Positions 6,095 through 36,395 of a DNA stretch of 64,000 bases are shown piece by piece. Source of the stretch: Actinopolymorpha alba DSM 45243. GTDB taxonomy: Bacteria; Actinomycetota; Actinomycetes; Propionibacteriales; Actinopolymorphaceae. Both the position numbers and the translations under genes were made by a program. Positions within the stretch are counted from its first letter, which is position 1; the number at the start of each line of letters is the position of its first letter. Where the stretch lies: positions 186,001 to 250,000 of the forward strand of contig NZ_KB892707.1 in NCBI RefSeq assembly GCF_000373925.1, read 5' to 3'. Below the pieces are notes generated by a model. That model was not told the DNA's origin. It saw only the letters and a program-made list of their open reading frames with translations, and did no database searches.

Positions 6095-9000
6095 GTGACG
6101 GAGCAGGGGACCGTCACGAGTGCGGGCCACCTGGCGCGCCTGGGTTTCGTCGAGCCAGACGCGGTGCTGAGCCGCCTGCCGGCGTTCGGGGCCGCGCCTG
6201 ACAGGTTGGTCGACGCCGCCTCCCGGGCCGCGGACCCCGACCAGGCGTTCGCCTTCCTCACCTCGATGCTCGAGGTGGTCGACGACCGGGCCGAGTTCGA
6301 GACCGCGCTGGCGGAGAACCCTCAGCTCCGCGACCGGCTCCTGCGGGTGTTGGGCGCCAGCGCCGGGCTGGCCGAGCACCTCCTCCGGCACCCTGAGCAT
6401 TGGCACGAGCTCACCGACCCCGACCTCGGGGCGTGGCGGCCGGCCACGTGGGCCCTTCGTGCCGCCCTGCTGGACGCCGTGGGAGCCGACCCGCGGGCGC
6501 CGGAACCCCTCGCTTCTGACGGCGGTCCGGCGGCGGTCGACACCCTCCGGGTCGCCTACCGCCGGCACCTCCTGCGGCTTGCCGCCCGCGACCTGAGCCA
6601 CGAGGTCGTCGTCGACGATGCGGCCGCCGAGTTGGCTGACCTGGCCGCGGCGGCGTTGGACGCGGCGCTCGCGATCGCCCGTGCCCGGCTGCCGGCGGGA
6701 GCCGTGCCGTGCCGGATCGCCGTCATCGGCATGGGCAAGTGCGGGGGGCATGAGCTCAACTACATGAGCGATGTCGACGTCCTCTTCGTCGCCGAGCCGG
6801 CGGATCTCGCGGTCGAGCCACCAGCGGCCGCGGCCGCCGGAGGCGGGGACGAGCGGCCGCCGACCGCGGTGGGGGAGGAGGGGGCTCTGCGTACCGCCAC
6901 CCAGCTGGCGTCCCAGGTCATCCGGATCTGTTCGGAGCACACCGCCGAAGGCGCCCTCTGGCCGGTCGACGCGGCGCTGCGGCCCGAAGGCAAGTCGGGG
7001 CCGCTGGTACGCACCGTCGCCAGCCACCTCGTCTACTACCAGCGCTGGGCCAAGACCTGGGAGTTCCAGGCTCTCCTGAAGGCGCGCACAGTGGCTGGCG
7101 ACCGGGAGCTGGGCACGGCGTACCTCGACGCGGTGATGCCGCTGGTGTGGCAGGCCGGGAGCCGCGAGGGTTTCGTCGAGGACGTGCAGGCCATGCGTCG
7201 CCGGGTCGTCGACCACATCCCGGCCGCCGAACTCAACCGTCAGCTGAAGCTGGGTCCGGGCGGCTTGCGGGACGTGGAGTTCGCGGTGCAGTTGCTGCAG
7301 CTGGTCCATGGCCGGTCCGATCCGAAGCTTCGTAGCTCCTCCACCCTGCGGGCGTTGGAAGCGCTCACCGCTGGTGGGTACGTCGGCCGCGAGGACGGTG
7401 CGGCGCTCGCCGAGGCGTACCGCTTCCTGCGGACCCTGGAGCATCGGATCCAGCTGTCCCGGCTCCGGCGTACCCACCTCCTCCCCGCTGACGAACATGA
7501 CCTGCGCGCGCTCGGACGGTCTCTCGGCTTCTGGTCCGAGCCGGACGCGGCGCTCTTACAGAACTGGAAACGCCATGTGCGCGAGGTACGCCGGCTGCAC
7601 GAGAAGCTCTTCTATCGCCCGCTTCTCGCCGCGGTCGCCCGCATCCCGACAGAGGAGGCACGGCTCACGCCCGAGGCGGCCCGGGCCCGGTTGACCGCTC
7701 TGGGGTACGCCGATCCGTCCGCCGCGCTCCGGCACATCGGGGCCCTCACGGCCGGGGTGTCACGGCGGGCCGCGATCCAGCGGACCCTGCTGCCCGTGCT
7801 GCTCGAATGGTTCGCCGACGCACCCGATCCCGATGCCGGGCTCCTGGCGTTCCGGCAGGTCTCCGACACCCTCGGCTCGACCCCTTGGTATCTCCGGCTG
7901 CTTCGCGATGAGGGCATCACCGCCGAACGCATGGCGCGGCTGCTCGCGTCCAGCCGGTTCGTCGTCGATCTGGTCCGGCAGGCACCCGAGGCGGTCGCCA
8001 TGCTGGGACACGACCAGGACCTCCAACCCCGCGCTCGTGAGCAGCTCGAGGCCGAGACCATGGCCACGGTCGGGAGGTACGACGATCCGGTGGAGGCGAT
8101 CACCGCCGTCCGGGCGATCCGGCGACGCGAACTCTTCCGGATCGCGGCCGCGGATCTGCTCGGCCTGGTCGAGGCCGATGTGGTGGGGGAGGCACTCACC
8201 GATCTGGCCGCGGCGACGGTGGCCGGTGGCCTGGCGGCTGCCGTCCGGGCCGTCGAGGTCGTCCGCGGCGAGGCGCTGCCGACCCGGCTCGCGGTGGTGG
8301 CGATGGGCAGGTTCGGTGGGCACGAGATGGGCTACGCCAGCGACGCCGACGTGATCTTCGTGCACGAGCCGTACGCCGGTGTCGAGGAGAAGGCCGCCGC
8401 CGACGCGGCGATGGCCGTCATCACCGAGCTGCGCCGCCTGCTTGCCCTTCCGACCCCGGATCCCCCGCTGGTCGTGGACGCGTCGCTGCGGCCGGAGGGG
8501 CGCCAGGGGCCGCTGGTACGCACGCTCGCGTCGTACGCCGCCTACTACCGGCGCTGGTCACACGTCTGGGAGGCGCAGGCGTTGCTGCGGGCCGAACCCC
8601 TGTGTGGTGATCCGGACCTGAGGCAGCGGTTCGTCGACCTGATCGACCCGTTGCGTTGGCCCTCGGCCGGGCTGTCGGCTGCCGACATTCGGGAAATCCG
8701 CCGGATCAAGTCCCGCGTCGATGCCGAACGCCTACCACGGGGCGCGGATCCGACCACCCACACCAAGCTCGGTCGCGGCGGCCTTGCCGACGTCGAGTGG
8801 ACGGTGCAGTTGTTGCAGCTTCGCCATGCGGCGGAGATACCCGCGCTCCGGACGACCCGGACGGTGCCGGCCCTCCGCGCGGCCGTGGAGGCGAGCCTTC
8901 TCGAACCCGCCGACGCCGAGGCGCTGGAGTCCGCCTGGCGGCTGGCCACCCGAGCCCGCAACGCGATCATGCTGGTTCGTGACCGGCCCTCGGACTCGCT

Positions 9001-11055: not shown

Positions 11056-11598
11056 GTGACCAGACCAAAAGCCAGTGTCGTTGTCGCCCCGGTCCTCGCG
11101 ACGTTGCTCATCGGTGGTGTCATGGCCGGGTGTGCACGAGACGATGACAACGAGCCGACGGGCGACATCGCGCCGAAAGCAACCGCGGAGCGCGAGCTGC
11201 AGACCAACACCGAATCAACTCGAAAGGCCACGGCGACGCCCACAGACGAAAGTAGCGACGAACCCACCGAGGACCCGTCGAGCACGTCCGCCACCGGGCC
11301 TACGGGAAAGCCGTCGAGCAAATCCCCCGACGGATCCGGCGTTGGCGCATGCTATGACGGCAACTGCACCGTCACCATCACGAAGTCTCCCACCGAGATC
11401 CCGCTCGACCCCGGCCTCGGTCTGGGTATTGACTCGGTAGCCGTCCACGTCAGCAGCGGTGGTGTGACAATTGAGAGTGAGTACCTTGCCGTCGGGGGCA
11501 GTGAAGGCACTCGTGGCAGGATCAACGGCCTCGGCTACACAATCATTTCGGTTGGGGACGGTACCTGTGTCCTTCAGTTCAGTACCGGGCCTTCGTAG
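11056..11598 (+). CDS. Secreted lipoprotein, function unknown
   Basis: 180 residues with a signal peptide ending in a lipobox-like VMAGC at about residues 20–24, so lipid anchoring at the outer face is likely. A long Thr/Ser/Asp/Glu-rich linker (about 25–95) leads to a small C-terminal domain with two Cys pairs (CYDGNC, and CVLQ near the end). GTG 11056 is chosen because GGAGG at 11046–11050 is well placed; a TTG start at 11044 would lie upstream of this ribosome site. Low-complexity linkers like this usually hold a small binding domain away from the membrane. No family recognised. Confidence 0.75.
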   Translation: MTRPKASVVVAPVLATLLIGGVMAGCARDDDNEPTGDIAPKATAERELQTNTESTRKATATPTDESSDEPTEDPSSTSATGPTGKPSSKSPDGSGVGACYDGNCTVTITKSPTEIPLDPGLGLGIDSVAVHVSSGGVTIESEYLAVGGSEGTRGRINGLGYTIISVGDGTCVLQFSTGPS

Positions 11599-11706
11599 TC
11601 GGGGCACCAAGAGCCAACTGGAGCCGCCGCCCCTTAATCAAGCGTTGACGGTCCAGTTGGCTGGTGCCTCTCGAAGTCGGCCGGTCGAAAAGGGCTACCG
11701 CACTGG

Positions 11707-13098
11707 TTATCCCCGTGTCCAGGTGAGCTTGTTCGATACGATTCGCTTCCCGTCGGGTCCTTCCGCGACGATCCACACCTGCTGGCCGACCGCGTTGCAC
11801 GGGAACTGCTCGTCTTCGTGCTCCATGCCGTTCTCGTCGGTGTTGCGATCCACGCTGTTGAACTCACCCCACCCACTTGTGTATGCGACGAAGCGGTATT
11901 TGGTGCCCGGCTCGAGTCCCGTCGCCTGGAACTCGACGTAGGCGCAGCCCTCCTTGCAGCTGTTGCCGTACGTCGTCGCTGGCCCCCTGGACACCGCGAC
12001 TCTCGGACCGGTCGTTGCCTTGCTGGACTCGCTGCTGGAGCTGGACGGGTCGGCCGACGTGTGCGAAGAGGAAGCGGCGGGTGTGGAGTCACGATCGGAT
12101 TGCCAGACCAGCAAGGCGATCAGGGCGACCGTGGCAACCGCCAGGGCGCCCGCTCCCGCACCCACAGCGCGCCGCCGTCCAGTAGTGGTGGTGCGCCAGC
12201 GGCTCGCGGCAGCGTCGTAAATCCTCCGCCACGGCGTGGGCGGGTCGGTAATGTCGCGTAGCAGCCTGTGGGCCTCGGCGGCGGCCGGCCGCTTGTCCGG
12301 CTCGGTCCGGAGCATCGCTGTCAGCACGGGGCGCAGCGGCCCGACATCCGCGGTCATCTCGACGACGCCATGGTGAGCTTGCCCATTCATGGTGCGTTGG
12401 TCGTCCGGGTCGCTGTGGTCTCCCTCACCGACCTCTCTGCCTCCGTGCGCCCATCGGCGTGGCGAGACCCCCGCGACCAGGGCATAGACGGTGGCACCGA
12501 GAGAGAACACATCGGATGCCGTTTGCGGATTTCCGCCGACGAGCTCGGGTGCCGCGTAGTCGGGGGTGTAAGAGATCGGGCGGTCGGGCGAGAGGGTCTC
12601 GATACCGCCAAGCCTCCGAGCGGCGTCGAAGTCGGTCAGCTTCGCCGTCTCGTCATCGGTGAGGACGATGTTGGCGGGTTTGACGTCGCAGTGGACCAGC
12701 CCCGTGCGGTGCAGCGCCGCCAGCGCGTCGGCGATCTGGACGCCGATTCGCGCGGCTTCCCGGACGGTGAACGTCCTGCCCGACAGACTGCCGTTCGGCA
12801 CGTGCTCCATGACCAGCCAGGTGCCGGCCCGTGGTCCATGATGGACGGTCAGGACATCGTGGACGGTGACGATGTGCGGGTGGGCGAGTTTCGCGTAGGC
12901 GCGGGCCTCGCCTGGATCGGTCCGCTTGAGCACGACGCGACGGCCGAGTTCCTCGTCGTACGCGAAAGTCACCTCGTTTCTGCCCTCGGGGATGACCTCG
13001 GATGCCTCCACCCGGAACCGCCCGCCGAGTCTTTGCTCGTTGCCCCCGCCACCCTGGGGATCACGGTCGTCGACTTCCCCATCCGGACGCACCCTCAT
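11707..13098 (-). CDS. Transmembrane Ser/Thr protein kinase with extracytoplasmic sensor domain
   Basis: 463 residues. An N-terminal kinase domain (about 25–290) has a shortened N-lobe (VVLKR keeps the ATP-binding Lys), the catalytic loop HCDVKPANI (Asp, Lys and Asn all present) and DFD in place of DFG, then YTPDYAAPEL and a DVFSLGATVYAL helix. One transmembrane segment (about 312–332) leads to a Ser-rich linker and a C-terminal domain of about 100 residues (345–463) with a Cys pair NSCKEGC. The key residues suggest an active kinase despite the unusual glycine loop and DFD. It is convergent with the lipoprotein gene at 11598. The FHA protein at 15.4–16.2 kb is an obvious candidate reader of its phosphorylation. 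Confidence 0.9.
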   Translation of the reverse strand: MRVRPDGEVDDRDPQGGGGNEQRLGGRFRVEASEVIPEGRNEVTFAYDEELGRRVVLKRTDPGEARAYAKLAHPHIVTVHDVLTVHHGPRAGTWLVMEHVPNGSLSGRTFTVREAARIGVQIADALAALHRTGLVHCDVKPANIVLTDDETAKLTDFDAARRLGGIETLSPDRPISYTPDYAAPELVGGNPQTASDVFSLGATVYALVAGVSPRRWAHGGREVGEGDHSDPDDQRTMNGQAHHGVVEMTADVGPLRPVLTAMLRTEPDKRPAAAEAHRLLRDITDPPTPWRRIYDAAASRWRTTTTGRRRAVGAGAGALAVATVALIALLVWQSDRDSTPAASSSHTSADPSSSSSESSKATTGPRVAVSRGPATTYGNSCKEGCAYVEFQATGLEPGTKYRFVAYTSGWGEFNSVDRNTDENGMEHEDEQFPCNAVGQQVWIVAEGPDGKRIVSNKLTWTRG

Positions 13099-13492
13099 CC
13101 GCCTCCCTCACCAACCGTGTGCCGCCGCTCGCTGACCGTGCATAGAGATGAGCACGCAGCGCGTCGGACCAAGATCTTTCCTGATCCCAAACTCCGACGA
13201 GGATGGACGATACCGGCGAAAACTTGCTGATCGGCACATGTTCGATGAATGAAGCGAAATCAGGCAGACGAGGACGCGGAACCGACGAGGCCTCGGGACC
13301 AGCGAGGACTCCACGGTGGGTGACGGTCGGGCCGGCTTCGCAAGTGCGTGGCTGGCTTCTCACGGGAAGTCGAAGCCGACGCAGAGCAGGTACGTGCGGT
13401 TTCAGCCGATCGCGCGCGGAAACGTGGACGCCCGTACAGGCGCATCGGATGAGGCGCCGCCAGCTGAGGTGTCCAGTTCACCTCCAGGTCGG
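13099..13492. other. Gap without a convincing gene
   Basis: About 390 bases between the kinase start and the small membrane protein. Several frames are open but give Arg/Pro-rich translations typical of shadow frames in high-GC DNA. I see no RNA gene or clear promoter. Confidence 0.4.
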
Positions 13493-28417: not shown

Positions 28418-28423
28418 TAGGTT
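28418..28423 (+). promoter_or_regulatory. Putative leaderless -10 of the DUF84 gene
   Basis: TAGGTT seven bases before GTG 28431. The same gap holds short GGTCAGGCCCGG-type direct repeats at 28310–28355. Confidence 0.45.
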
Positions 28424-28430
28424 GTCGGTC

Positions 28431-29015
28431 GTGTCCTTACGTGTAGCTATCGCTTCCGGCAATCCCGTCAAACGCCGCGCAACTCTCGAGGCGGTCCGTG
28501 TCACCCTCGGCTACGACGAGGTGGACGCGGTTGCCGTCGAGGTCGATTCGGGCGTACCCCACCAGCCGGTCGGGGACGAGGAGACGTTGCGGGGTGCGCG
28601 CAACCGCGCCGACGCCGCACTGACGCTGCTGCCGGACGCCGACCTCTGGGTCGGTCTCGAGGGGGGTGTCGTCGAGCGGGACGGCGCGCTCGAGTGCATG
28701 GCGTGGGTCGTCGTGATCGGGCGGTCCGGTGAGGACGGCCAGCTGTGCAAGGGCGAGAGCCGCACGGCGACGTTCGTCCTTCCCGCGGAGATCGCCGAGC
28801 TGGTGCGTGCCGGCGCCGAACTCGGCGACGCCACCGACCAGATCTTCGGCGACAAGGACACCAAACGGAGTACGGGCACGGTTGGTCCGCTCACCGGCGG
28901 AGTCATCGACCGGGTGGCGTACTACGCGCACGCGATGGTCCTGGCGCTGGTGCCGTTCCGGAACGCCGAGCTCACCTTCCCGGCGGCCGACAAGGACGCG
29001 GCCCCCGTCGCCTGA
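28431..29015 (+). CDS. Inosine/xanthosine triphosphatase family (DUF84, YjjX-like)
   Basis: About 194 residues. Predicted to hydrolyse non-canonical purine nucleoside triphosphates (ITP/XTP), a nucleotide-pool sanitiser in the cytosol. Signatures: IASGNPVKRRATLEAV at the N-terminus, VDSGVPHQPVGDEETLRGARNRA, LWVGLEGGV, and the C-terminal DKDTKRSTGTVGPLTGGVIDRVAYY. Length is normal. GTG 28431 is chosen over TTG 28422 on the leaderless pattern. Divergent from lipA. Confidence 0.9.
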   Translation: MSLRVAIASGNPVKRRATLEAVRVTLGYDEVDAVAVEVDSGVPHQPVGDEETLRGARNRADAALTLLPDADLWVGLEGGVVERDGALECMAWVVVIGRSGEDGQLCKGESRTATFVLPAEIAELVRAGAELGDATDQIFGDKDTKRSTGTVGPLTGGVIDRVAYYAHAMVLALVPFRNAELTFPAADKDAAPVA

Positions 29016-29126: not shown

Positions 29127-29786
29127 TCAGACGAGGTGCACAGACTTCGGGGCGAGAGCCTCGATCAGGCGGCGTTCGGTCGACTCGAGGACGTCCTGGA
29201 CGCCGACCTCGCGGCCGAGTTCGGCGGTCAGCGAGGTGACGCCGGCGTCGGCGAGGCCACACGGCACGATCCGGCCGTACGCCTCGAGGTCGCAGTCGCA
29301 GTTGAGCGAGAAGCCGTGCATGGTGACGCCCTGCGAGACGCGAAGGCCGATCGCTCCGAGCTTCCGGTCGGGTCCGCGATCATCGGCGGGCACCCACACG
29401 CCGCTGCGCCCCTCGATGCGGCTCGTCGCGAGCCCGGCGTCGGCGCACACGTCGATGAGGGCCTGCTCGAGAAGCCGGACGAACGCCACGACGTCGATCG
29501 GCTCCGTCAGCCGAACGATCGGGTATCCGACCAGCTGGCCGGGCCCGTGCCAGGTGATCTTGCCGCCGCGGTCGACGTCGATGACGGGGGTACCGTCCAG
29601 CGGGCGCTCGTAGGCCTCGGTGCGCTTGCCGGCCGTGTAGACCGCCTGGTGTTCGAGCAACAGGATGGTGTCGGGGATAAGATCAGCCACTCGCTCGGCG
29701 TGGAGGCTGCGCTGCTGCGACCAGGCATCCTCGTAGTCGACGGCCTGCGAGCCGAACCCCGCACGAATGAACTGCGGTGAACTCAT
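29127..29786 (-). CDS. lipB: Octanoyltransferase
   Basis: Transfers octanoyl from acyl carrier protein to lipoyl-domain lysines, the step before LipA. 219 residues. Conserved [29 protein letters not shown] (catalytic Lys) and the acyl-accepting Cys in [13 protein letters not shown] are present. ATG 29786 is chosen: TAAGCT lies seven bases upstream; the longer open frame upstream is implausible. It is separated from lipA by the DUF84 gene on the opposite strand. Confidence 0.98.
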
Positions 29787-29793
29787 ATCCTGC

Positions 29794-29799
29794 AGCTTA
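29794..29799 (-). promoter_or_regulatory. Putative leaderless -10 of lipB
   Basis: TAAGCT seven bases before ATG 29786; a weak AGGA also lies in the spacer. Confidence 0.4.
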
Positions 29800-29984
29800 G
29801 AGTGTGCGGCGGCGAAGCCACGCCAGCGCTGCCCAGTGTGGGGTCTGGAGACAGGTCGCGAGGCGGGGTCATGCCACGTTCGCGTGCGTCCTTCCGGCAT
29901 TTCTGCGTCTCATGCCGTGAGAGATCACGACGGATCGTGCCACCGGTCATCGTGCCGTAACCGTAAGTCTGGAAGGCTTGGAGC

Positions 29985-31658
29985 GTGCGGAGCGACTTCG
30001 GGGTGGATGGGTATGAGATCGAGGGGCTGCTGGGTGCTGGGGCCACCGGCGAGACGTGGCTTGCCCGGGAGGGGGCCTCCGGTAACCACGTCGCCCTCCA
30101 GCGGATCCGGCCGCGCGACGCCCAGGCCGCCGAGCAGATCCGCCGCCTCGTCGAACGCCTCGACGCGCTCGCGCGGCCACACCTGCGGCGGATCAGGGAG
30201 TTGCTGCCGTACGGCGAGGAGTTCGTCCTGGTCCTCGACCATGTCGAGGGCGGCACGCTCGAACAACTCCTGCTGGTCAGGGGCATCCTCGACCCCGGCG
30301 AAGTCGTCACGATGGCCTCCACAGTCGCCGGCGCACTCGCGGCCGCGCACGAGCGGGGCCTGGTGCACGGTGCGGTCACGCCAGAGACCATCCTCTTCAC
30401 GGCTGAGGGCACGCCGCTGATCGCGGACGTCGGCCTCGGCCAGCTCGTCCGGTCCCCAGACGGCACTCCGCCCAACCCCTACGCCGATCCGGCCGAGCCC
30501 AGCGAGTCCACGCCGTCCCCGGCCGGCGACGTCTACGGCCTGGCGGGGGTCTGCTACACCGCCCTCACCGGGTTGACGCCGCGGGCGGGTGAGCCGCACC
30601 GTCCCATCCACCAGGTCTCACCGGGTGTCCCGCCCGGTCTCGCGCACGCGATCGAGGCGGGTCTGCAGCGGGCGTGGGACATGCGCCCGCACATCGGTCA
30701 GTTCGCCGCCTTGCTGGACGCGGCCTGCCCGCGGGTGCCGGTCCGGCTTCCCGACGGTAAGCCCGCTCCCGAACCCTCGCCTCCTGAGTACGGCCCCGCG
30801 CCGTCCACCACGACGGCGCCCGCACCGGCATACTCCCCGGCACCTCCCTTTGGCCCGCCGCCGGCACGGGAGTCCGGGCAGTCGGGTCAGTCCGGTCAGG
30901 AACGCCCGCCACAGAACGCGGGGCCTCGGCGTCCTGAGCAGTCCCCGCCCCCGCCGCCCCGCCAGGGATCGGGTCAGACGCCACCGACCCCGCCGCCGGC
31001 GCGGCAGGGCGGCGAGGAGGAGTCGCACGAGCGGGAACCCTCCCGCACCCCCCAACTCGCGATGGTGGGCGGTGCCCTGCTGCTCGTCGTCATCATCATC
31101 GTGGGTGTGGTGGTGTGGCGGATCAACGCCAGTTCGACTCCCGATACCACGAAGACCACGCAGCCGACACGGACGGCGACTCCTACGCCGCGCCCATCGG
31201 TGTCCCTCGACCCGGTCGCCGCGCAGTGGATGAAGACGTTCAAGACGTTCGACGATCGGCGTACCAAGGCGTTCGCGGAACGCCAGCCCAACCTGCTCAC
31301 GACGTTGTACGCGCCGGAATCCCAGGCGTACAACGAGAACCGCCAGTACATGCGGCTGCTCGCCCAGCGCGACGCGCGCCGGGTGTTGGGACTCAAACGG
31401 CCGATCAGCACACTGCGGACCGTCACCAAGGCCCCGAACCGGATCGTCTTCGAGGCCGAACGCCAGGAGCAGTCGTACACCGTCGTCATGGACAGCGGCC
31501 AGCAGTTCCGTTGCCCGGGTGGACCCGTCAAGAAGGTCCGGATCGAGGTCGTGCCGCTGAAGGGCACCACGGCCTGGCGCATCTCCCGCGAATGGCAGGT
31601 CGGCGGCCCGACGACGGCGGAGGTGCAGGTCTGCCAGCGGGTCACGCCGACCGGCTGA
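29985..31658 (+). CDS. Membrane pseudokinase receptor, copy 1 of 3
   Basis: 557 residues. Kinase-like domain (1–245): glycine loop LLGAGATGETWLA, but the ATP-anchoring Lys is Gln (VALQR) and the catalytic loop reads HGAVTPETI, so the catalytic Asp, the Lys and the metal-binding Asn are all gone; DVG replaces DFG. Catalysis is therefore unlikely. A Pro/Gln-rich linker (255–345), one transmembrane helix (about 353–373) and an extracytoplasmic domain of about 150 residues follow. The latter resembles an NTF2-like fold, shared with copies 2 and 3. GTG 29985 has GGAG upstream. It begins a three-gene tandem array and may dimerise with copy 2. Confidence 0.88.
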   Translation: MRSDFGVDGYEIEGLLGAGATGETWLAREGASGNHVALQRIRPRDAQAAEQIRRLVERLDALARPHLRRIRELLPYGEEFVLVLDHVEGGTLEQLLLVRGILDPGEVVTMASTVAGALAAAHERGLVHGAVTPETILFTAEGTPLIADVGLGQLVRSPDGTPPNPYADPAEPSESTPSPAGDVYGLAGVCYTALTGLTPRAGEPHRPIHQVSPGVPPGLAHAIEAGLQRAWDMRPHIGQFAALLDAACPRVPVRLPDGKPAPEPSPPEYGPAPSTTTAPAPAYSPAPPFGPPPARESGQSGQSGQERPPQNAGPRRPEQSPPPPPRQGSGQTPPTPPPARQGGEEESHEREPSRTPQLAMVGGALLLVVIIIVGVVVWRINASSTPDTTKTTQPTRTATPTPRPSVSLDPVAAQWMKTFKTFDDRRTKAFAERQPNLLTTLYAPESQAYNENRQYMRLLAQRDARRVLGLKRPISTLRTVTKAPNRIVFEAERQEQSYTVVMDSGQQFRCPGGPVKKVRIEVVPLKGTTAWRISREWQVGGPTTAEVQVCQRVTPTG

Positions 31659-31700
31659 TCGCGGCGGCGCCGTGCTCTGCTCGCGGCTCGATGGGGGTGG

Positions 31701-31733
31701 CCCCAACGCAGGTGGGGGCCGGAACCAGCACAG
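31701..31733 (+). repeat. Element C copy 1
   Basis: CCCCAACGCAGGTGGGGG hairpin followed by GGAACCAGCACAG, 42 bases after kinase-like gene 1. A near-identical string occurs at 49582. May act as a terminator-like stem. Confidence 0.6.
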
Positions 31734-31853
31734 ACCGGTCCATGACTCCACGCCGGGGGCGTTGGGTAAGGTCGCGAGCCGCCACCACCCGTGAGGTTTC
31801 GCGGAGGTGGGGGCGACACCTGGGTCAGCTCACTGGAAGGCTTGGGCATCAGC

Positions 31854-33557
31854 ATGCAGGGCGACTTCCGCGTCGAGGGGTACGACATCGAGGGCCTGCT
31901 GGGCGCTGGCCCCGCGGGCGAAGTGTGGCTTGCCCGCGAACTCTCCTCAGGTACCCAGGTCGCGTTGAAGCGCCTGCGTCCGCGCGACACCGACGCCCAG
32001 GACGAAGCGCGCCGGATCGTGTCGGTGCTCGGCCAGCTCGCTCATCCGCAGGTTCTCCCGATCCGGGAGATGGTGTTGTACGGCACCGAGGTGGTGTTCG
32101 TGCTGGAGTACGCCGACGGCGGGAGCCTCGGCCAGCTGCTCCTCGCACGGGGCACGCTCGACCCCGGAGAAGTCGTCGGCGTGGCGAGCGCGGTCGCGAC
32201 TGCGCTGGCGGCGATCCACCAACGCGGCCTGGTCCACGCCGACGTGACGCCTGAGAACATCCTGCTGCGGTCTGACGCGCGGCCGCTGCTCGCGGACGTG
32301 GGTTTCCTTCGCCTGGTCGAGGGTGGCGAGGGCGGGACGCTCGGCTACACCGACCCGGCGGCGCAGAGCGACTCCGATCCCACGCCGGCGGGGGATGTCT
32401 ACGGCCTCGCGGCCGTCTGCTACGCCGCCCTCGCGGGAAACCCGCCGGAGCCAGGACCCCAGCACCGTCCGCTCCACCAGGTCGCGCCGGGTGTGCCGCC
32501 GGGCCTGGCGCACGCCATCGAGGCCGGTTTGCAGAGCACACCGGCGCAGCGTCCGGGCGCGGCGGAGTTCGGCGCCCAGCTCGCGGCGGCGTGCCCGAGT
32601 GCGCCGATCCGTTTCCCTGACGGGTCGATGGGGGACGCGGACTTCCTCGCCGCACTCGGCCAGCACCCCTCTGACCAGGGGTCTGGTGCGGGGCAGAGTC
32701 CGTTCAGCCTCGGCGAGCTGGCGGGGCCGCAGCGGGGCGAGACCGAGCCGGGTGTCGCCGCTCAGGACCCACCACCTGCCGGGAGCAACCAGCCGCCGGT
32801 CTTTCAGCAGGGTGCGCCAGGTGCTGCGCCGCCGGTGAGTCCGTTCCCGGGCACCACCGCCCGGCCCGTTCCCGAGCACACGCCGGACGATGACGACGAT
32901 GAGCGGGATGGGCGCCGGCGGCGCGGCCTGGTGCTCGGTCTCGCGATCGGAGCCCCGCTGGCCCTCGCGGCGATCGTGGCGGTCGGAGTTGTCGGCTGGC
33001 GAACGCTCGCCGGATCCACGCCCTCAGATCCGCGGGTCACGACCGGCGCCTCCAGTGCTCCGGCAGTGCCGCCCGAGTCGACGGCCTCGGCCACCCCCTC
33101 GGCAGCGGCGTCGGCGCGGCCGACCAGCGCGCCGCGCAGTGCGGCGGAGGCGCGCTGGACGCGGGTCCTCACCACGCTCGACCAGCGCCGTGCGCAGGCC
33201 TGGCGAACCTGGAACCCCCAGCTGCTGAGCAAGGTCTACCAGCCCGGATCCAAAGCCCTGCAGGAGGAACTCGCCCTCATGCAGCTCCACGAGGACAAGA
33301 ACGTCACCAGCGTGGTGGGCCTCAACACCCCGATCCTGTCGTTGGACGTGGTGTCCGAAAGCTCCAGCAAGGTCGTCGTCGACGCGGTGAGCCAGCTCCA
33401 GCCGTACCAACTCGAGCTCGACGGTCAGCTGTACCCGCACCAGGGCGGGACCCCCAAACGGTTCCGGATGACCCTGGTCCCTGACGGATCGAACGGCTGG
33501 CTCATCGCGTCGAGCCGGGAGATCGGCGGCGTACCCACCACCGGGCCAGCGCGGTGA
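31854..33557 (+). CDS. Membrane kinase-like receptor, copy 2 of 3 (possibly active)
   Basis: 567 residues with the same layout: kinase domain (1–245), Pro/Gln-rich linker, transmembrane helix (about 354–378, GLVLGLAIGAPLALAAIVAVGVVGW) and extracytoplasmic domain. This copy keeps the Lys (VALKR), the catalytic Asp and Asn (HADVTPEN) and the Asp-Gly of DFG (DVG); only the loop Lys is Thr. It is the most likely of the three to retain ATP binding and perhaps phosphotransfer. ATG 31854 is aligned with the other copies (MQGDFRVEGYDIEGLLG); an earlier start at 31791 adds an unconserved extension. 195 bases from copy 1. Confidence 0.88.
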   Translation: MQGDFRVEGYDIEGLLGAGPAGEVWLARELSSGTQVALKRLRPRDTDAQDEARRIVSVLGQLAHPQVLPIREMVLYGTEVVFVLEYADGGSLGQLLLARGTLDPGEVVGVASAVATALAAIHQRGLVHADVTPENILLRSDARPLLADVGFLRLVEGGEGGTLGYTDPAAQSDSDPTPAGDVYGLAAVCYAALAGNPPEPGPQHRPLHQVAPGVPPGLAHAIEAGLQSTPAQRPGAAEFGAQLAAACPSAPIRFPDGSMGDADFLAALGQHPSDQGSGAGQSPFSLGELAGPQRGETEPGVAAQDPPPAGSNQPPVFQQGAPGAAPPVSPFPGTTARPVPEHTPDDDDDERDGRRRRGLVLGLAIGAPLALAAIVAVGVVGWRTLAGSTPSDPRVTTGASSAPAVPPESTASATPSAAASARPTSAPRSAAEARWTRVLTTLDQRRAQAWRTWNPQLLSKVYQPGSKALQEELALMQLHEDKNVTSVVGLNTPILSLDVVSESSSKVVVDAVSQLQPYQLELDGQLYPHQGGTPKRFRMTLVPDGSNGWLIASSREIGGVPTTGPAR

Positions 33558-33648
33558 GCGCGGCGAGCGCGACCGGCCGGCGGTCCGGGCGCGGCGCTGT
33601 GGACAACGCTGATCACCGCCGGTCCCTGGTCTGAGAGGCTTGGCGACC

Positions 33649-35445
33649 ATGCGGGGCGAATTCCGGCTGCGAGGGTATGACGTCGGCACGCTGCTCAGTG
33701 GGAGCGCGACCGGCGAGGTGTGGCTGGCCCGCGTCCAGGGTTCGGGTGAGCAGGTTGCCCTCAAGCGGCTGCGGTTGCGGAGTGTCCAGGCACGCGAGGA
33801 CGCCCGCCGGCTGGCCTCGGTGCTCGGGGTTCTCGACCATCCGCACGTCTTGCGCGTGCGTGAGGCGCTTCCGTACGGCGACGAGCTCGTCCTGGTGCTC
33901 GACCACGCCGAAGGGGGCAGCCTCGACCACCTCCTCAACGCCCGCGGCGGCCTGGATCCTGGCGAGGTGGTGACGGCCGTCGCGCCGATCGCCGAGGCCC
34001 TGGCCGCCGCCCACGAGCGTGGGTTGGTGCACGGCGACGTCACGCCGGAGGCGATTCTCTTCACCGCCGATGGTCGTCCCCTCCTGACCGACCTGGGTGT
34101 CCTCCCTCTCGTCGAGGGCGGCGAGGTCCTGGCCACGGTTGGCTACACCGACCCCGCTGCTGTGGGGGAGACGGGTCCGACGCCGGCTGGCGACGTCTAC
34201 GCCCTGGCCGCGGTGTGCTACGCCGCACTCACCGGCCTGGTGCCGCGCCCAGGGCAGCCGCGACGGCCGTTGACGGACGTCGTTCCTGACGTTCCGCCGG
34301 GTTTCGCGCACGCCGTGACTGCCGGGCTGCAGCCGCTGCCGGCACGCCGTCCGACCGCCGCGCAGCTCGCCGAGATGGTGTACGCCGCGTGCCCGCCGGC
34401 GCCCGTGCGGTTTCCCGTGGGGCTGGTGCTGAGCGATTCCGACATCGCCGCCGCGATGGCGGCCGCGGCCGGTGACGGGCCGACGTCCCCGCCGGATCCG
34501 TTCGCCCGCGGGCTCCAGGGACCTGGCCAGCCGGGTGCACCTGGCTGGCCAGGCACCCCCAACCAGCCGGGGGGACCCGGCGGGGGAGTGGCGAATCCGG
34601 CCGGATCAGGGCCTGCTGGCGCCCCGACGGCCGGACCCGCACCCGCTGGTGCGCCCGCCGACCCGCTGGCGAGCCCGATGGCACACCGGGCACCGGCCGG
34701 GACCGGACCTGACAGTTGGAACGACCAGCTCGACGCCGATGACGAAGGCCGCGGCCGCAGGGTCGGACTCATCGTGGCGGCCGGTATCGGCGTCCTCCTG
34801 GTCACCGCGGCCGTCATCGGGGGCGTCATCTGGGCCACCCGGTCGCGCCCGGTGAGTCCGCCCACGCTCGCCGAGCTCACGGCCTCTCCAGCGACCAGCG
34901 CCGCGCCCAAGGCCACCACGACGCCTGACACGTCCACGGCGCCGAGCCCTCAGCCCACCCGAACGCCGGCCACTACCCGTCAACCCACGGCCGCGCCGCC
35001 ATCGACCACGCCCGCACCTCCACCGACCTCGACGGCGAAGCCCGCACCCCCACCAGACGGACCCGAGGCGCGATGGCGCGACGTCCTGACCCAGCTCGAC
35101 CGGCAGCGGGCGCAGGCGTTCGCGGAGCCTGACGCCGCCGTCCTCAAGAACGTCTACACCGCCGACTCCGAGCTGCGGACCAAGGATGCCGCCGAGATCG
35201 AGAAGTGCGTGGACGCCGGCTGCAAGGTCGAGGGCCTGAGGTTCGACATCAAGACGCTCGACGTGGTGTCGTCCGGCCAGACGCGGACGGTGCTGCGGGT
35301 GGTCGACCAGCTCCAGGCGTACTCCATCATCACCGCGTCAGGTGAACGCCTGGATCAGCCGCCGGGACAGGTCAAGACCCGCCAGATCACGCTCACCAAG
35401 GATGCCGGCGCGGGTTGGCTCATCGCTCGCATAGACGAGGGCTGA
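33649..35445 (+). CDS. Membrane kinase-like receptor, copy 3 of 3 (probably impaired)
   Basis: 598 residues. The Lys is kept (VALKR) but the catalytic loop is HGDVTPEAI: Asp present, metal-binding Asn replaced by Ala; DLG replaces DFG; the glycine loop is LLSGSATGEVWLA, missing the first Gly. It is probably a weak or dead kinase. A longer Pro/Ala/Gly linker (about 270–365), one transmembrane helix (about 373–396), a Thr/Pro-rich tail and the same NTF2-like extracytoplasmic domain follow (RWRDVLTQLDRQRAQAFAEPDAAVLKNVYT). ATG 33649 is eight bases after GAGGCT. A Cys pair in the sensor (EKCVDAGCK) is unique to this copy. Confidence 0.88.
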   Translation: MRGEFRLRGYDVGTLLSGSATGEVWLARVQGSGEQVALKRLRLRSVQAREDARRLASVLGVLDHPHVLRVREALPYGDELVLVLDHAEGGSLDHLLNARGGLDPGEVVTAVAPIAEALAAAHERGLVHGDVTPEAILFTADGRPLLTDLGVLPLVEGGEVLATVGYTDPAAVGETGPTPAGDVYALAAVCYAALTGLVPRPGQPRRPLTDVVPDVPPGFAHAVTAGLQPLPARRPTAAQLAEMVYAACPPAPVRFPVGLVLSDSDIAAAMAAAAGDGPTSPPDPFARGLQGPGQPGAPGWPGTPNQPGGPGGGVANPAGSGPAGAPTAGPAPAGAPADPLASPMAHRAPAGTGPDSWNDQLDADDEGRGRRVGLIVAAGIGVLLVTAAVIGGVIWATRSRPVSPPTLAELTASPATSAAPKATTTPDTSTAPSPQPTRTPATTRQPTAAPPSTTPAPPPTSTAKPAPPPDGPEARWRDVLTQLDRQRAQAFAEPDAAVLKNVYTADSELRTKDAAEIEKCVDAGCKVEGLRFDIKTLDVVSSGQTRTVLRVVDQLQAYSIITASGERLDQPPGQVKTRQITLTKDAGAGWLIARIDEG

Positions 35446-35486: not shown

Positions 35487-36395
35487 TCACTCGCGTGTGC
35501 CGGGCTTGTGCAACGCGGTCGTCACCAGGCTGGTGACGTCTGGCGAGCCGAAGGTGAAGCCCGCCTCGAGCAGGCGGCGCGGCAGGACACGGACGCTGCC
35601 CAGGAGCTCGTCCGCCAGTCCGTTGAGCATCAGCCGCAGCGCGAACGCCGGAGCGGGTAGCAGGGTCGGGCGATGTAGGACCGCACCGATCGCGGCGGTG
35701 AGTTCGGCGTTCGTCGTGGGTTCGGGCAGGGACACGTTGTAGGGCCCGCGAGCGTCGGCCTGGCCCGCGACGAATGTCGCGGCGGCCACCCAGTCGGGTA
35801 GGGACACCATCCCCACGAACTGCCGTCCGGAGCCCAGCCGCCCGCCGAGGCCGAACCTGAACGGCAGGGCCATGAGGGGGAACGCGCCGCCGGAAACGTC
35901 CAGGACGAGGCCGGTCCGCAGACGGACGACCCGCACGCCGGCATCCTCAGCGGGCGCGGTGGAGTTCTCCCAGTCGCGGGCGAGGTCGGCCAGGAACCCT
36001 TCGCCCGGCGGGCTGTACTCGTCGATCTCCTCCGTGCCGCGTTCCTTGCCGTAATAGCCGGTGGCGCTCTGGGCGATGAAGGCGGGTGGATCGTCAAGAC
36101 CCGCGAGCGCGCGGGCGAGGGTGAGCGTCGTACCAATCCGGCTCTGACGAAGAGTCTCGCGATACGACGACGTCCAGGGGATACGCCCGATGCTGGCGCC
36201 GGCGAGGTTGACCACCACGTCGGCATGGCTCAGGACCCCGTCGTCGACCTCGCCACGAGCGGGGTTCCAGTACGACTCGTGCGGGGTTCGGGGCTCACTC
36301 CGCACGAGTCGGGTCACCTCGTGGCCGTCGCGCGCGAGCTGGGCCCGCAACGCGCGCCCCAGGAAGCCGGATGCTCCCGCGATGACGTAACGCAT
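35487..36395 (-). CDS. TIGR01777-family NAD(P)-dependent epimerase-like protein
   Basis: 302 residues. Extended SDR fold with nucleotide motif VIAGASGFLGRALR at the N-terminus, ADVVVNLAGASI, QSATGYYG (the active-site Tyr region) and a C-terminal DUF1731-type segment (LPAPAFALRLMLNGLADELLGSVRVLPRRLLEAGFTF). The biochemical role of the family is not settled; some members are described as cell-division or nucleotide-sugar related. It lies downstream of the E2 gene on the same strand, as in other actinomycetes. Confidence 0.93.
   Translation of the reverse strand: MRYVIAGASGFLGRALRAQLARDGHEVTRLVRSEPRTPHESYWNPARGEVDDGVLSHADVVVNLAGASIGRIPWTSSYRETLRQSRIGTTLTLARALAGLDDPPAFIAQSATGYYGKERGTEEIDEYSPPGEGFLADLARDWENSTAPAEDAGVRVVRLRTGLVLDVSGGAFPLMALPFRFGLGGRLGSGRQFVGMVSLPDWVAAATFVAGQADARGPYNVSLPEPTTNAELTAAIGAVLHRPTLLPAPAFALRLMLNGLADELLGSVRVLPRRLLEAGFTFGSPDVTSLVTTALHKPGTRE

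Follow-up and report, generated by a model that had tools for sequence, protein, structure and literature searches.

The genome of Actinopolymorpha alba DSM 45243 carries, between lipB and the gene of a TIGR01777 family oxidoreductase, three tandem genes whose products join a kinase fold to a linker, a putative membrane helix and a sensor-like ectodomain. These genes—hereafter copies 1, 2 and 3, or k1, k2 and k3—are intact open reading frames (ORFs) on the same strand, in a stretch of 64,000 nucleotides of contig NZ_KB892707.1 (positions 186,001 to 250,000) that we call the window. Our analysis suggests that the array probably arose, in this family only, by tandem duplication of a membrane receptor gene that many Actinomycetes retain between lipB and TIGR01777, and that the kinase fold of this receptor often becomes a non-catalytic signalling or scaffold module. 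The sequences show that the most widely shared features are the ectodomain and the locus, and that the kinase fold has decayed to differing degrees by lineage. Actinopolymorpha is a genus of harmless soil or plant-associated actinomycetes.

Kinase folds of the three copies

An initial annotation had read the array as three paralogues with a kinase fold, a linker, a hydrophobic helix and a sensor-like ectodomain, lying inside the lipB–TIGR01777 neighbourhood; this description holds, for the flanking genes as for the proteins. The PF00069 profile scores 58.1, 102.4 and 88.2 bits for copies 1, 2 and 3, all above the gathering cut-off of 31.7; with the fold matches of the k2 and k1 models, this places the proteins in the protein kinase superfamily. 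The alignment gives copy 1 an identity of 45% with copy 2 and of 42% with copy 3. In the AlphaFold2 models of copies 2 and 1, a confident kinase domain (predicted local distance difference test, pLDDT, of 79–98 in 10-residue blocks over residues 1–250) is followed by a disordered linker, one long helix that we take as the membrane helix, and a confidently modelled ectodomain made of helices followed by strands. Copy 3 most likely starts at the ATG 33649 rather than at the TTG 33640, because the former aligns with the starts of the other array members.

Counting residues from the start codon, the kinase-domain alignment gives Q, K and K for copies 1, 2 and 3 at position 39 (the ATP lysine), A, D and D at position 130 (the catalytic aspartate) and T, N and A at position 135 (the asparagine). 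Asp148 of the DxG motif is kept in the three window copies, as DVG, DVG and DLG in place of DFG. The losses first proposed are thus correct: copy 1 lacks the ATP Lys and the catalytic Asp, copy 2 keeps Lys, Asp and Asn, and copy 3 has Ala for Asn. Among the three copies only copy 2 keeps the entire Lys-Asp-Asn-Asp quartet, and it does so in the eight genomes of our family sample (six of the window's genus and one each of two other genera).

From these residues copy 2 had been proposed to be an active kinase, and this we cannot support. The residue comparison, made against 13 kinases of canonical motif from the window genome and congeneric genomes, reveals that the 19 array proteins of the family, copy 2 included, lack the alpha-C Glu (L, I or V at position 55), that none keeps the HRD-Arg (G or A instead), the catalytic-loop Lys (T or S instead) or the APE-Glu, and that all have a shortened activation segment. 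The loss of the loop Lys alone is a weak mark, since Thr takes its place in L008, itself among the 13 canonical kinases; it is because the four residues are absent from 19/19 array proteins that the activity of copy 2 is not established. Copy 2 even looks more impaired than the eight quartet-keeping relatives found outside the array, because these all keep the alpha-C Glu (L145, L153, L165 and L166 between both flanks; L151, L161, L167 and L185 with one flank in view). The genomes of these relatives have a single ectodomain match in six cases; G085 and G148 have a second.

Copies 1 and 3 had been taken for pseudokinases, which is partly borne out. Their impairment persists across genomes: in copy 3 the Asn is replaced by Ala or His in 8/8 genomes and the Lys by Arg in four, and copy 1, wherever present (3/3), has Q, R or H for Lys together with T, S or T for Asn, with A, Y or D at the catalytic Asp position and a lost DxG Asp in G007. 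That the residue pattern by copy recurs in eight genomes places it beyond chance. Copy 3 of the window, on the other hand, keeps the triad formed by Lys, HRD-Asp and DFG-Asp, as does copy 2, and only copy 1 lacks Lys and Asp. If a pseudokinase is a protein with at least one triad residue missing, as defined in PMC12599244, the name applies to the three k1, to none of the eight k2, and to k3 of G001, G003, G004 and G005 (Arg for Lys), not to k3 of G000, G002, G006 and G007.

The array in its family

The array occupies the same gap in all eight family genomes. Copies 2 and 3 co-occur in each of them and copy 1 is present in three only (G000, G002 and G007), so that a three-part receptor is not obligatory. 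In the phylogenetic tree the 19 array proteins form one clade (support 100/100), within which k3 (100/99), k1 (100/100) and the grouping of k1 with k2 (96/83) are recovered; copy 2 is not resolved as one clade. Recent duplication in the window species only is ruled out, the k1 and k3 clades spanning genera and k2 being spread over the same genera.

The ratio of nonsynonymous to synonymous substitution (dN/dS, Nei-Gojobori), computed for the three pairs of G000, G002 and G007, gives rough kinase-domain values of 0.19–0.28 for k1, 0.18–0.23 for k2 and 0.18–0.25 for k3. The value of copy 1 exceeds that of copy 2 in two of the three pairs; judged by these ratios, the kinase domain of copy 1 is under purifying selection much like that of copy 2. 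The ectodomain is looser (0.30–0.51 in the same pairs). A pseudogene array is ruled out by the intact ORFs of the 19 members and by dN/dS well below 1.

A shared element, CTGRNAGGCTT, stands before each of the three genes (Table 1) and overlaps the likely ribosome site. Its exact matches in the window are only those three; with one mismatch allowed there are seven matches for 4.08 expected, a number reached by 10 of 100 shuffles, and genome-wide CTGRNAGGCTTNG has eight matches vs seven for the reversed control. Because these totals are at chance level, only the placement of the element is notable. In G007 every copy has it upstream, and so has every copy in G002 (with one mismatch at k2) and k2 of G006; it was not found before the copies of G001, G003, G004 and G005.

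Around the array, an inosine/xanthosine triphosphatase gene (window 28422–29015, + strand) lies between lipA and lipB, at the same place in the family stretches examined. The window holds another kinase-like gene (12271–12912, − strand; L061), with HCD for HRD and DFD for DFG.

Table 1. Coordinates in the window of the three genes, their parts, the upstream elements and the flanking genes
Feature	Position	Strand	Remarks
Copy 1 (k1)	29985..31658	+	GTG start, 557 aa; dead kinase fold, linker, membrane helix and ectodomain; orthologues in 3/8 family genomes
Copy 2 (k2)	31854..33557	+	ATG start, 567 aa; keeps Lys39, Asp130, Asn135, Asp148; lacks alpha-C Glu (Ile55), HRD-Arg, loop Lys, APE-Glu; 8/8 family genomes
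Copy 3 (k3)	33649..35445	+	best start ATG 33649, 598 aa; keeps Lys39, Asp130, Asp148; Ala for Asn135; degraded Gly loop; 8/8 family genomes
k1 codon 39	30099..30101	+	Gln replaces ATP Lys (R in G002, H in G007)
k1 codon 130	30372..30374	+	Ala replaces catalytic Asp (Y in G002; D kept in G007)
k1 hydrophobic helix, taken as transmembrane	31056..31130	+	residues 358–382, AlphaFold2 model
k1 NTF2-like-looking ectodomain	31203..31655	+	two Cys conserved 3/3
k2 hydrophobic helix, taken as transmembrane	32925..33008	+	residues 358–385, AlphaFold2 model
k2 NTF2-like-looking ectodomain	33132..33554	+	model and ectodomain alignment
k3 hydrophobic stretch, taken as transmembrane	34762..34836	+	by alignment with the other copies
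k3 NTF2-like-looking ectodomain	35050..35442	+	Cys pair conserved 8/8
Shared 5' element CTGRNAGGCTT before k1	29969..29979	+	
Shared 5' element CTGRNAGGCTT before k2	31833..31843	+	
Shared 5' element CTGRNAGGCTT before k3	33631..33641	+	
lipB, conserved upstream flank, divergent from the array	29127..29900	-	
TIGR01777 family oxidoreductase, conserved downstream flank	35487..36395	-	

The receptor locus across Actinomycetes

Of the 57 genomes searched in the order, 40 have a match to the ectodomain profile: 8/8 in family f1, 16/18 in f3, 16/16 in f4 and 0/15 in f2. Built with more rows, the profile is matched in at least 71 of 148 genomes of the class, a lower bound as no more than 28 first-look candidates were scored in any genome at this level. 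The 70 matching genomes besides the window's have one match in 61 cases and two or three in nine.

The place of these genes is constant. We counted 88 sensor ORFs at 25 bits or more (one match below 25 bits, L187, being excluded) in 78 stretches, 7 from the family, 20 from the order, 40 from the class and 11 further ones, the window itself excluded. Both flanks are in the stretch for 66 of these ORFs, one flank for 10 and neither for 12. The 66 with both flanks in view all sit between lipB and TIGR01777, divergent from lipB; some of these gaps are several kilobases wide, and the count concerns the position of the sensor ORF, not other genes in the gap. Among the 12 with neither flank, L154 and L183 may be at the locus as well, since lipA and sucB adjoin the first and sucB the second. 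One stretch, L142 (G180), has two ectodomain ORFs (7106–8294 and 11114–13217, one of them holding a run of N) in a single lipB–TIGR01777 gap, possibly an independent tandem case.

The kinase moiety is far less constant. In f3 a single gene encodes a kinase N-lobe and a cut-down C-lobe; the catalytic Asp is replaced in the 10 proteins fetched (from the 16 f3 genomes with a match), with Lys and DxG Asp kept in 10/10 and Asn in 9/10. In f4 the single gene encodes a hydrophobic stretch and the ectodomain, no kinase-domain match being found in the 10 stretches fetched out of 16. In other families the product of the gene varies: some keep the quartet, some have a dead fold, in which Lys is often replaced by Arg and the DxG Asp by Gly, and some have no recognised kinase; in the class-stretch set, 11 of 41 sensor ORFs give no kinase-profile match, some being cut by contig ends or runs of N. 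The HRD-Arg and the loop Lys are kept in none of the 54 proteins tabulated at the locus (19 of the array, 31 between flanks and 4 with one flank), a count from which L149, L150, L172 and L174 were left out for their poor kinase alignments. Upstream of nine f3 genes (L099–L101, L103–L108) a GATAAC element occurs about 35–45 bases before the start; it is possibly part of the divergent lipB promoter.

The ectodomain itself may resemble the NTF2 fold, given its modelled succession of helices and strands. No Pfam family was found at E 0.001 among the 34 ectodomains scanned; DUF4440 weakly matched nine of them, and none of the DUF4440/SnoaL matches is better than E 0.0066. When PDB sequences were searched with an ectodomain profile, the rows obtained (repeat proteins, flagellar proteins and a few others) had E values of 0.0038 or higher, and we take them as chance. 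Searches with full-length models barely probed the ectodomain, because kinase domains filled the structural match lists. As to cysteines, copy 3 has a pair in 8/8 genomes, copy 1 two different ones in 3/3 and copy 2 none in eight; copy-specific disulfides in the ectodomains of copies 1 and 3 are possible.

Known systems and alternative explanations

The order of domains—N-terminal kinase fold, linker, one membrane helix, extracytoplasmic domain—is that of PknA and PknB, the Hanks-type receptor kinases of mycobacteria. These are also the top rows of the structural comparison of copy 2 (PknA: Z 28.8, root-mean-square deviation (rmsd) 2.5, 244 residues aligned; PknB: Z 28.0, rmsd 2.7, 240 aligned), with many other kinases close behind (Z about 27). 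The array proteins differ from PknA and PknB by their NTF2-like-looking ectodomain, their shortened activation segment and the absence of HRD-Arg, loop Lys, alpha-C Glu and APE-Glu, and they fall outside the PknB/PASTA kinases (NF033483 at 63.8–82.1 bits vs a cut-off of 450). A defence-system kinase is ruled out as well, the NCBIfam MADS6 and PglW matches being far below their cut-offs. For both full-length models Foldseek ranks the CaMKII holoenzyme first, with alignments of 597 and 592 columns. CaMKII likewise has a kinase, a linker and an NTF2-like-looking C-terminal domain, its hub being NTF2-like. We regard the likeness as an analogy only: the TM-scores on the query are 0.35 and 0.33 and the rmsd 26.2 and 32.8, and CaMKII has no membrane helix.

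Bacterial pseudokinases are, according to the abstract of PMC12599244, largely unexplored by experiment; the families catalogued there (ActPs1/Act1, ActPs2, ActPs3 and DYD) are likewise actinobacterial, several of them membrane-linked, and have lost one or more of three catalytic residues. The DYD pseudokinases, like the array proteins, lack the alpha-C Glu, but they bear the DYD motif; 18 of the 19 array proteins have DVG, DAG or DLG instead, and k1 of G007 has GLA. An Act1 entry in Table 1 of PMC12599244 (VVVR / Hqrlrads / EIG) resembles the dead type found at the locus. The kinase domain may belong to one of these families, and the dead members may belong to the Act1/ActPs1 group, as compared with its published description. 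Many ActPs1 proteins bear a PQQ-type C-terminal domain, unlike the array, and the G-helix of ActPs1/Act1 is often missing, as described there. Neither NTF2 nor lipB occurs in the main text of that paper. Receptor-like kinases and pseudokinases of actinobacteria are thus a known kind. In the open-access literature searched we found no description of the array, of where it lies or of the graded series, and no paper on the lipB–TIGR01777 receptor locus or on a kinase with this ectodomain.

On the reading that we prefer, a duplication in the window's family gave rise to copy 3 on one side and to the lineage of copies 1 and 2 on the other. The ATP/Mg quartet stayed whole in copy 2; the Mg-binding Asn disappeared from copy 3, as did the Lys in some species; and copy 1 turned into a dead kinase fold that purifying selection still maintains. 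The ectodomain might bind an extracytoplasmic ligand or oligomerise the proteins, and the kinase fold might relay the state of the ectodomain as a conformational or docking module, phosphorylation not being the main route. Nucleotide binding is probably retained by copy 2, which may work as a switch or a slow kinase; copies 1 and 3 would most likely have a regulatory or scaffold role, and may form mixed oligomers with copy 2.

Several observations weigh against this interpretation. The eight locus relatives with quartet and alpha-C Glu could be active kinases, so that kinase decay is not universal; the APE-Glu is kept in 6 of the 31 between-flank and in one of the four one-flank proteins, and L183, left uncounted because this stretch at a contig end shows sucB alone, has the loop Lys (HGDVKPAN) without the HRD-Arg. 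Dead copies are also found away from the locus, in G180 and G151 (L143, L147). The invariance of the four residues of copy 2 (8/8) is only modestly above overall conservation, 119 of the 252 columns of its kinase domain being invariant, which gives about 0.05 for any four columns, the tree ignored. The synonymous divergence (dS) of 0.67–1.38 in the comparisons of G000, G002 and G007 makes the dN/dS values rough. The NTF2-like assignment of the ectodomain is weak by sequence, being below significance. Finally the genome sample was drawn automatically, and the last 51 stretches, accounting for 52 of the 71 class places outside the order, were picked by hand.

The three kinase folds might instead all be dead in practice, the proteins serving as docking platforms and substrates of the cell's canonical kinases. 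There is a precedent in the MviN pseudokinase domain, a substrate of PknB that acts with PknB and FhaA (PMC12599244), where the dead kinase fold of a membrane protein is, as that text describes it, a regulated docking site. MviN is another protein at another locus. We know of no tandem receptor set that it forms. The absence of HRD-Arg, loop Lys, alpha-C Glu and APE-Glu from 19/19 array proteins agrees with such platforms, as does the genome's content of 18 PF00069 matches, of which three are the array and several others have canonical motifs. A pure scaffold is however not required to keep Lys, Asp, Asn and DxG-Asp, as copy 2 does in 8/8 genomes, and we hold this explanation to be possible but doubtful.

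The initial annotation had proposed a hetero-oligomeric receptor with copy 2 as active kinase and copies 1 and 3 as allosteric pseudokinases. The stable division of residues by copy, the joint presence of copies 2 and 3 in the family, the ectodomain common to all copies and the 5' element preceding the genes in three-copy genomes are in its favour, and co-occurrence and shared ectodomain make a hetero-oligomer as such plausible. Against it, copy 2 lacks the four residues named above, copy 1 is absent from 5/8 genomes, and the search for the same array elsewhere, which retrieved copies 2 and 3 throughout the family, gave mostly single homologues outside it. The situation named in advance as contrary to the proposal, homologues occurring singly with no partner, is largely what is seen: relatives elsewhere are single genes at the locus, with a quartet-keeping, a dead or no kinase. 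As most ectodomain genomes have just one such match, an array partner is not generally needed. We therefore consider the proposal, in this full form, rather unlikely. The nearest match that we found to an active-plus-dead receptor is in G161, G110 and G125, where a fully canonical kinase (HRD, loop Lys, DFG, APE) with the same kind of ectodomain is encoded off-locus (L139, L177, L180, in stretches without lipB or TIGR01777) and the copy at the lipB locus is dead (L140, L178, L179). A further off-locus kinase-ectodomain gene, L182 of G189, lacks near 2676 the HRD-motif stretch that its relative L180 has, by deletion or assembly artefact.

Neutral decay of redundant duplicates, leaving copies 1 and 3 functionless, would fit residue losses that differ by copy and species, the absence of copy 1 from 5/8 genomes and its kinase-domain dN/dS above that of copy 2 in two of three pairs, but it is very improbable given 19/19 intact ORFs, the retention of copy 3 in 8/8 genomes and a kinase-domain dN/dS of 0.09–0.28 in copies 1 and 3 that is far below 1 and overlaps the 0.18–0.33 of copy 2.

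Returning to the family-specific expansion, one may speculate by analogy, with little confidence, that the array is a bacterial counterpart of the HER2/HER3-type receptor sets: a shared NTF2-like ectodomain, and one nucleotide-binding subunit under the control of a conserved kinase-dead paralogue or two. Such a set would have evolved as catalytic residues were lost step by step at a fixed locus of actinobacteria, in which the ectodomain of other lineages stands without any kinase. In any case the locus offers, in one conserved place, a natural series going from quartet-keeping kinase-fold receptors to pseudokinases with varied losses and to an ectodomain without kinase. This series lets one ask what the kinase fold adds to a bacterial receptor once catalysis is lost, and whether duplicated receptors split labour between nucleotide-binding and dead subunits.

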